Below, piece after piece: positions 12,788 to 13,083 of a stretch of DNA of 64,000 bases. The DNA is taken from positions 62,001 through 126,000 of the forward strand of contig NZ_JAJTWT010000006.1 of NCBI RefSeq assembly GCF_021353235.1, in the 5' to 3' direction. The stretch comes from Pelomonas caseinilytica (GTDB taxonomy: Bacteria; Pseudomonadota; Gammaproteobacteria; Burkholderiales; Burkholderiaceae_C). The stretch's first letter is position 1. The number at the start of each line of letters is the position of its first letter. The notes under the pieces are model-generated. The model worked only from the letters and a program-made list of their open reading frames with translations. It made no database searches and had not been told where the DNA came from. The position numbers and the translations under genes were made by a program.

Positions 12788-13083
12788 CCGAGGCCCGCCA
12801 GTTGGGACTGGTAACACGATGGCAAAGGGCCGCGAAGGCCATCCGCAAAGTGCCAATCAAGGCGCGACGCGCCGCCCGCACCCATGTGCGGGCAAGCGGT
12901 GCAACGCAGAGTGGCGCTTTGCGGATGGCCTTCCCGGAGGGTTGTGGCCAGAACGGCCGGATACTGCGTTGCGAATCCTCGCCGGGTATGCACCCGGCTG
13001 CGGTTCGCGCCTTGTTCCCGGCCGTTCTGGCCACAACGCGACCCTTTGCCATCGTGTTACCAGTCCCCGGTTTCTGGCCTCGG
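12788..13083. repeat. 296-bp nested palindromic element between mreB and gatC
   Basis: Highly structured non-coding block. Outer arms 12805-12829 and 13042-13066 are a perfect 25-bp inverted repeat, extended outward by 8-bp arms 12788-12795/13076-13083. Inside lie two long stem-loops: 12835-12855 with 12912-12932 (20 of 21) and 12941-12959 with 13019-13037 (19 of 19). Each carries an inner hairpin: 12875-12881/12886-12892 and 12981-12987/12992-12998, the latter within a 5-bp stem 12971-12975/13004-13008. The whole can fold as a closed stem with two arms. It ends 21 bp before the gatC ATG. A MITE-like element or a structured leader RNA are both possible. Confidence 0.9.

Follow-up and report, generated by a model that had tools for sequence, protein, structure and literature searches.

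The window, a stretch of 64,000 nt, carries mreB (11589-12632, minus strand; Pfam MreB_Mbl) and gatC (13105-13404, plus strand; Pfam GatC), and nested inverted repeats were confirmed between these two genes. Their core is 264 bp long (12804-13067) and ends 37 bp before gatC. Two outer arms of 47 nt each (12788-12834 and 13037-13083) were 85% complementary and contained a perfect inverted repeat, given as 25 bp in the initial annotation, which measured 26 nt. The left copy of this terminal repeat, GGGACTGGTAACAC..., occupies 12804-12829 (plus strand; the family form is GGGCCTGTTMAC...), and its perfect complement (26/26 nt) lies at 13042-13067 (minus strand).

The terminal repeats enclose two hairpin arms. 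Arm A (12830-12937) is characterized, from the base to the tip, by an outer stem of 29 nt at 90% (12830-12858/12909-12937), within which the previously noted 20/21 stem lies; by the head motif CAAGGCGC (12858-12865, plus strand), found to be conserved in alignment A2 and by motif count, with its partner GCAACGC at 12901-12907; and by a terminal hairpin (12874-12893, with 12874-12881 paired to 12886-12893). Arm B (12941-13038) has a 20/20 stem (12941-12960/13018-13037), previously noted as 19/19, a head motif GCGTTGC (12966-12972, plus strand), conserved in alignment A3, with its partner GCGCCTTG at 13007-13014, and a terminal hairpin (12981-12998, with 12981-12987 paired to 12992-12998). The inner hairpin described for each stem-loop was confirmed in both arms, which are joined by a linker, CCCGGAGGG, of the form CCCnnnGGG (12933-12941). 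The arm model R2, in which the window's arm B was itself one of the model-building rows, matched arm B with 106.9 bits (E 1.9e-25) and also matched arm A, on the minus strand, at 12834-12932 (53.7 bits).

The RNA fold of 12804-13067 reached -206.1 kcal/mol, versus -113.2 kcal/mol for shuffled sequences (z -19.1), and the DNA fold gave a z of -18.5; none of 200 shuffles was as good in either case. The nested palindromes are genuine, exceeding what chance would give by a wide margin (fold z about -19), and the initial description needed small boundary corrections. The reading frames across the 264 bp were short and mechanical, and none appeared to be a transposase gene. We searched 12620-13140 for promoter-like and terminator-like consensus sites and found none, nor any terminator-like site with a T run.

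The mreB-gatC interval was occupied only in the window's own genome (G000), with 359 bp between anchors; the orthologous site was empty in 19/19 other genus genomes (96-118 bp between anchors). Beyond the terminal repeats, an 8-bp palindrome (CCGAGGCC on the left, 12788-12795; GGCCTCGG on the right, 13076-13083) had been described as the outermost extension of the structure. The palindrome is present, but it is host sequence outside the element, because the empty sites carry that sequence too. A perfect stem of 6-7 bp was observed at that place in 7/19 relatives (TTGAGCC/GGCTCAA in 6, CTGAGG/CCTCAG in 1); the remaining relatives showed an imperfect stem in a few cases, as judged by eye, and none in the rest. 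The element entered host DNA between mreB and gatC, probably in the loop of a host palindrome. The window copy is flanked by GTT and CGG, so that a clean target duplication is gone; CTAG was found at the insertion point in 5/19 empty sites.

A GGGCGGCGATAATAACCGA box was also observed between mreB and gatC, at 12759-12777 in the window and in L103-L122, with at most 3 mismatches in 20/20 genus genomes. This box, which is possibly a regulator or promoter site, lies close to the short host palindrome, the latter being present in some genomes.

Copies in the genus and a candidate helper

At least eight full-length copies were identified in G000 (5.98 Mb, 40 contigs), namely seven matches, including the window copy, and a divergent copy of 266 bp (L012). 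Arm model R2 marked 14 distinct places in this genome (21 matches, 7 of which corresponded to the other strand), and partial or more divergent copies therefore exist beyond the bounded ones. Five copies were 99-100% identical to one another, which indicates recent spread. The window copy shared only 76-78% identity with its closest full-length relatives in G000, with pairs altered on both sides, although other genomes may contain a closer relative. Judged from its sequence, it is either old or derived from another branch, and the recent origin that had been offered as one reading of its perfect arms is not supported for this copy.

Matches (E<=0.001) were found in 16/20 genus genomes including G000 (15/19 others), although some contained partial matches only. 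Loci fetched from the matching genomes yielded 88 raw end-bounded elements, 66 of them unique, and 59/66 measured 263-266 bp; 52 of the 59 unique full-length elements (258-268 bp, copies above 97% identity removed) form alignment A2. Elements of the genus were most often flanked by CTA on the left and TAG on the right (9/59 elements), the others being varied. For copy L004, alignment with the empty site stopped after the left flank.

Moreover, several departures from the common form were observed. Remnants without arms, 42-68 bp long, kept both terminal repeats (L044, L045, L169, L172, L175, L179) and apparently arose by deletion between arms or stems; one-arm forms also exist (L176, L177 and others). 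A three-arm element, L064:597-956, may be an assembly artefact, its repeated arm B being broken by an N. In L023:1504-1768, the inner part of arm B was inverted in place in an otherwise normal element. Nine of the 52 A2 rows (L012, L036, L037, L039, L041, L067:2565-2828, L097, L099 and L102) exhibited a different arm A together with a similar arm B and similar ends; from this second subfamily, arms look exchangeable between elements.

Using a pattern built from the element ends, we located an 823-bp IS5-type insertion sequence with perfect 16-bp ends, GGGCCTGTTAACACTA, and CTA/TAG flanks in 3 of the 19 other genus genomes, the outer right flank being cut by the contig end in one of the three; a more divergent relative of 825 bp was present in a fourth. 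Its two frames matched Pfam DUF4096 'IS4/5 family' and DDE_Tnp_1, and the named relatives of the first frame, among the matches listed, included a Variovorax 'IS5 family transposase'. We take this insertion sequence to be IS427-like. At E<=1e-20, it was found in 4/20 genus genomes and not in G000. Its ends match those of the family, their pairing ending after 16 bp, and the window copy's own ends differ at some positions. A doubled left end around an N near the contig end, observed in L165:1066-1460, is probably an assembly join. On the basis of these sequence matches, it is strongly suggested that the IS5-type helper mobilises the element. The initial proposal of a MITE-like mobile element is supported by the copies, the empty sites, the outer ends that the family has in common with an insertion sequence and its CTA/TAG-type flanks; the search of the genome and its relatives returned multiple dispersed copies, but a clean target duplication is lost at the window copy.

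Distribution beyond the genus

The same plan recurs beyond the genus, both in further genera of its bacterial family and in different families of its class, and it reaches one family of another class. This plan, of about 265 bp, consists of a terminal repeat, a hairpin of about 100 nt, the CCCnnnGGG linker, an inverted hairpin of about 100 nt and a terminal repeat. Across relatives, the ends and stems were rewritten yet paired, and the hairpin heads (CNAGGCGC...GCAACGNCG) were retained.

Within the family, 37/150 genomes (34/141 genera), including G000 and G006, matched a Roseateles-group element used as query (E<=1e-10; five candidates scored per genome). Twenty-eight of the 29 resulting loci were examined, L180 being left out as belonging to the same genus, and an enclosing palindrome was found in 27 of them. 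In these 27 loci and three G000 elements, the ends paired at 96% and the arms at 93% and 85% (ungapped, over 20 nt), and the central linker was present in its loose pattern in 30/30. Searches with R2, whose E-values are rough, matched 23/185 genomes of the class (E<=1e-6), G000 and 22 in other families, and 12/150 of the phylum (E<=1e-7). Besides G000, the latter comprised one genome of the same family, five of other families of the class and five of one family of another class. Genomes without a match were the large majority in these searches.

Bounded distant elements kept the plan; their ends included GGAAGGTCTGCACGA, AGAGCCTGTCTATG, GTACTCCGTCC and CTAGTGTCCCGTC. In one later set, searched over 150-330 bp, 15/18 loci had an enclosing palindrome, 14 of them at 261-285 bp and one at 188 bp. 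As a control for end-bounding, 17/20 matched bases at 225-330 bp were obtained at 4/145 random window places; bounding thresholds and ranges differed slightly from those of this control among the searches. Overall, 56 bounded elements were collected outside the genus, 27 from the family search and 29 from 35 later candidate loci (9/11 and 20/24), with L340, where the contig ends beside the match, left out. A full element with an extra inverted repeat in the linker region, 319 bp in total, was observed in L337.

The strict linker, CCCn3-4GGG, was centred in 51/56 of these relatives versus 48/1120 shuffles. A loose test was passed by 55/56 but also by 402/1120 shuffles, and is hence weak. The head motif pair was found in both arms of 45 elements, in one arm of 10 and in neither arm of 1, versus 98/1120 shuffled halves. 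Since the loci were recruited by arm or element similarity, the motif in the recruiting arm is partly circular evidence; this circularity does not touch the second arm, the linker, the ends or the length. Among named records, complete elements were identified in Halomonas sp. PA16-9 (270 bp) and Variovorax paradoxus (268 bp). Two Azotobacter chroococcum plasmids carried recognisable arms, and a clean enclosing repeat was not found in them at the threshold used; the arm-B pattern, taken alone, was present in at least 80 rows of named Burkholderiales records. This reach across proteobacteria is unusual for such elements.

Paired changes between the arms

In A2 (52 distinct elements), at least one kept double change was observed in 64/91 predicted pairs. 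Alignment A3 comprises 54 arm-B rows, 31 from the A2 subset thinned below 90% identity and 23 distant; it leaves out L023, with its inverted arm B, and four distant elements without GTTG/CAAC arm ends, so the invariance of these bases in A3 reflects how the rows were selected. Arm B was paired in 92.6% of A3 cells, versus at most 46.6% when the alignment was slid, with 25 pairs showing double changes. Its covariation was 0.331 versus 0.130 after shuffling, a control that ignores relatedness.

Mismatches were counted by type. In the A2 helices without column 23, G.T and A.C mismatches were nearly equal (54 versus 52); with this column, where 23/52 rows share one T.G, they numbered 77 and 53, respectively. 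In arm B of A3, 59 G.T and 42 A.C mismatches were found. With that one column set aside, the two mismatch types are thus about equally frequent, which does not point clearly to either strand as the transcribed one. As RNA from one strand would be expected to favour G.U more clearly, we lean towards pairing at the DNA level. The initial suggestion of cruciform-forming DNA is compatible with this, and is partly favoured by the mismatch symmetry, bar one column, and by concerted paired changes; extrusion itself would be a further step.

Three insertions, each shared by two species, were compared over 795 element sites and showed 21 differences, of which 6 make up three concerted double transversions, 9 are single changes in paired positions and 6 fall in unpaired positions. 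Pairing is therefore not always kept, given the 9 single changes. A fourth insertion pair, for which only the left flank is shared, exhibited four concerted pairs and was excluded from the count. The concerted double transversions fit arm-to-arm copying. Divergence in the shared insertions was 21/795 sites for the element and 325/3584 for the flanks, which is at most suggestive of purifying selection on aged copies; the nearest flank bins were also low (37/599 in the nearest 100 bp), so the lower divergence is partly shared by them.

Origin, upkeep and known relatives

The best overall explanation, to which we assign a probability of roughly 0.75, is a non-autonomous, gene-less transposable element of the MITE type. 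An IS5-type transposase would act in trans, mobilising the element at CTAG/TA sites. The long hairpins would arise where the DNA is single-stranded or extruded as a cruciform, and arm-to-arm copying (template switching), together with selection during mobilisation, could keep the arms matched. The least certain step is that a DNA-binding factor may read the conserved hairpin heads and so help the element to persist.

Alternatively, the hairpins could act as RNA, for instance by blocking transcription in both directions or by serving as RNase III substrates where genes end, with pairing selected on transcripts of both strands. Consistent with this, a neighbouring ORF ended exactly in the junction TAG for 31/66 elements, a count made without a chance control, and 13/32 elements with both neighbours called sat between convergent genes; near-equal G.T and A.C counts also agree with selection on both strands, and RNA roles are reported for other bacterial MITEs in a review (PMC2229807). 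However, 45/63 element-facing ORFs ended at the junction or inside the element, as C-terminal truncation would also produce, and in one case, compared by eye with the empty sites of 11 relatives and clearest in L154, the last codons had been cut off by the element. The window copy, moreover, lacks a terminator-like site carrying a T run, and we regard selection on RNA as unlikely. The initial annotation had also raised a structured leader RNA regulating gatCAB, which the position of the element between mreB and gatC, 37 bp before the latter, would suit. The lack of conservation at this site speaks against it, as 0/19 other genus genomes have the element there; other copies adjoin other genes, no promoter-like match was found in 12620-13140, and among 17 loci compared with Rfam, none had a match inside the element at gathering score. 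The sole match at that score was a tRNA outside the element, in L191, and the best sub-threshold match in the window scored 24.2 bits versus the 40.6 needed. We find such a leader scarcely credible.

The MITE-type reading also has to be set against pure mutation bias, by which template switching during replication keeps any long palindrome matched and function is limited to the terminal repeats. The concerted double transversions between shared insertions and the near-symmetric mismatches are what such a bias would leave, but the linker remained constant while the stems changed (strict form in 51/56 versus 48/1120 shuffles), as did the head motifs (both arms in 45/56 versus 98/1120 shuffled halves), and mutation bias by itself appears improbable to us. 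We consider it very unlikely that the arms represent attC-type sites, the hairpins at which integrons recombine: the conserved extrahelical bases and the variable terminal hairpin presumably recall attC, but we take the attC box sequences not to fit, and the element stems to be longer than those of attC.

Insertion 'at the stop codon' was a separate idea, weakened by the ORF-end counts and the one truncation case, since the TAG at the junction may not have been the gene's stop codon originally. No elements were found inside called genes using a home-made gene finder, which an insertion-cut gene would escape.

A broader version of the MITE-type reading can be offered only tentatively, with the odds against it: an ancient, proteobacteria-wide, gene-less superfamily, of which the conserved part would be the matched pair of hairpins of about 100 nt, the terminal repeats being swapped to suit the available transposase, with a widespread cellular factor recognising the heads as single-stranded DNA in folded form. 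MITEs are usually viewed as decayed insertion sequences whose ends define them. In the present element, variation lies in the ends and stems; what stays constant across families, and in a second class of the phylum as well, is the plan together with the length, the linker and the hairpin heads. Two questions thereby become testable, namely what reads the hairpin heads and whether, in nature, arm-to-arm copying keeps long palindromes matched, and the family provides a natural data set on palindrome evolution in living genomes.

To our knowledge, known MITEs are confined to narrower groups than the element described here. We found no description of this family in the literature covered, which includes few subscription papers, nor by sequence-string search. 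In PMC10106347 (Komagataeibacter hansenii), a 12-base string of the element ends occurs once. IS5-type (DUF4096/DDE_Tnp_1) insertion sequences share the outer 16 bp and the CTA/TAG flanks with the element, but encode a transposase in two frames and have ends that pair over 16 bp only. Like the bacterial MITEs mobilised by insertion sequences (RUP, Correia/NEMIS and MITEAba12), the element is small, gene-less and multi-copy, with terminal inverted repeats, a probable TA-type target and a likely helper insertion sequence. PMC2229807 reviews MITE families of about 100-200 bp with a single stem-loop formed by end pairing, CIRs excepted, and PMC10969869 describes MITEs as typically AT-rich. By contrast, the present element is GC-rich, has two internal hairpins and possesses a core common to proteobacterial families with different ends. 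The CIR repeats of Caulobacter and Brucella, which could be compared by description, resemble it in having two long inverted-repeat arms and a linker; in PMC2229807, they are distinguished from repeats with pairing ends and are described as carrying GANTC at a loop. CIRs are defined by arms and a linker without end pairing, whereas the ends of the present element pair at 26/26. Overall, we conclude that this is an element of the MITE type with an unusual, widely shared two-hairpin core.
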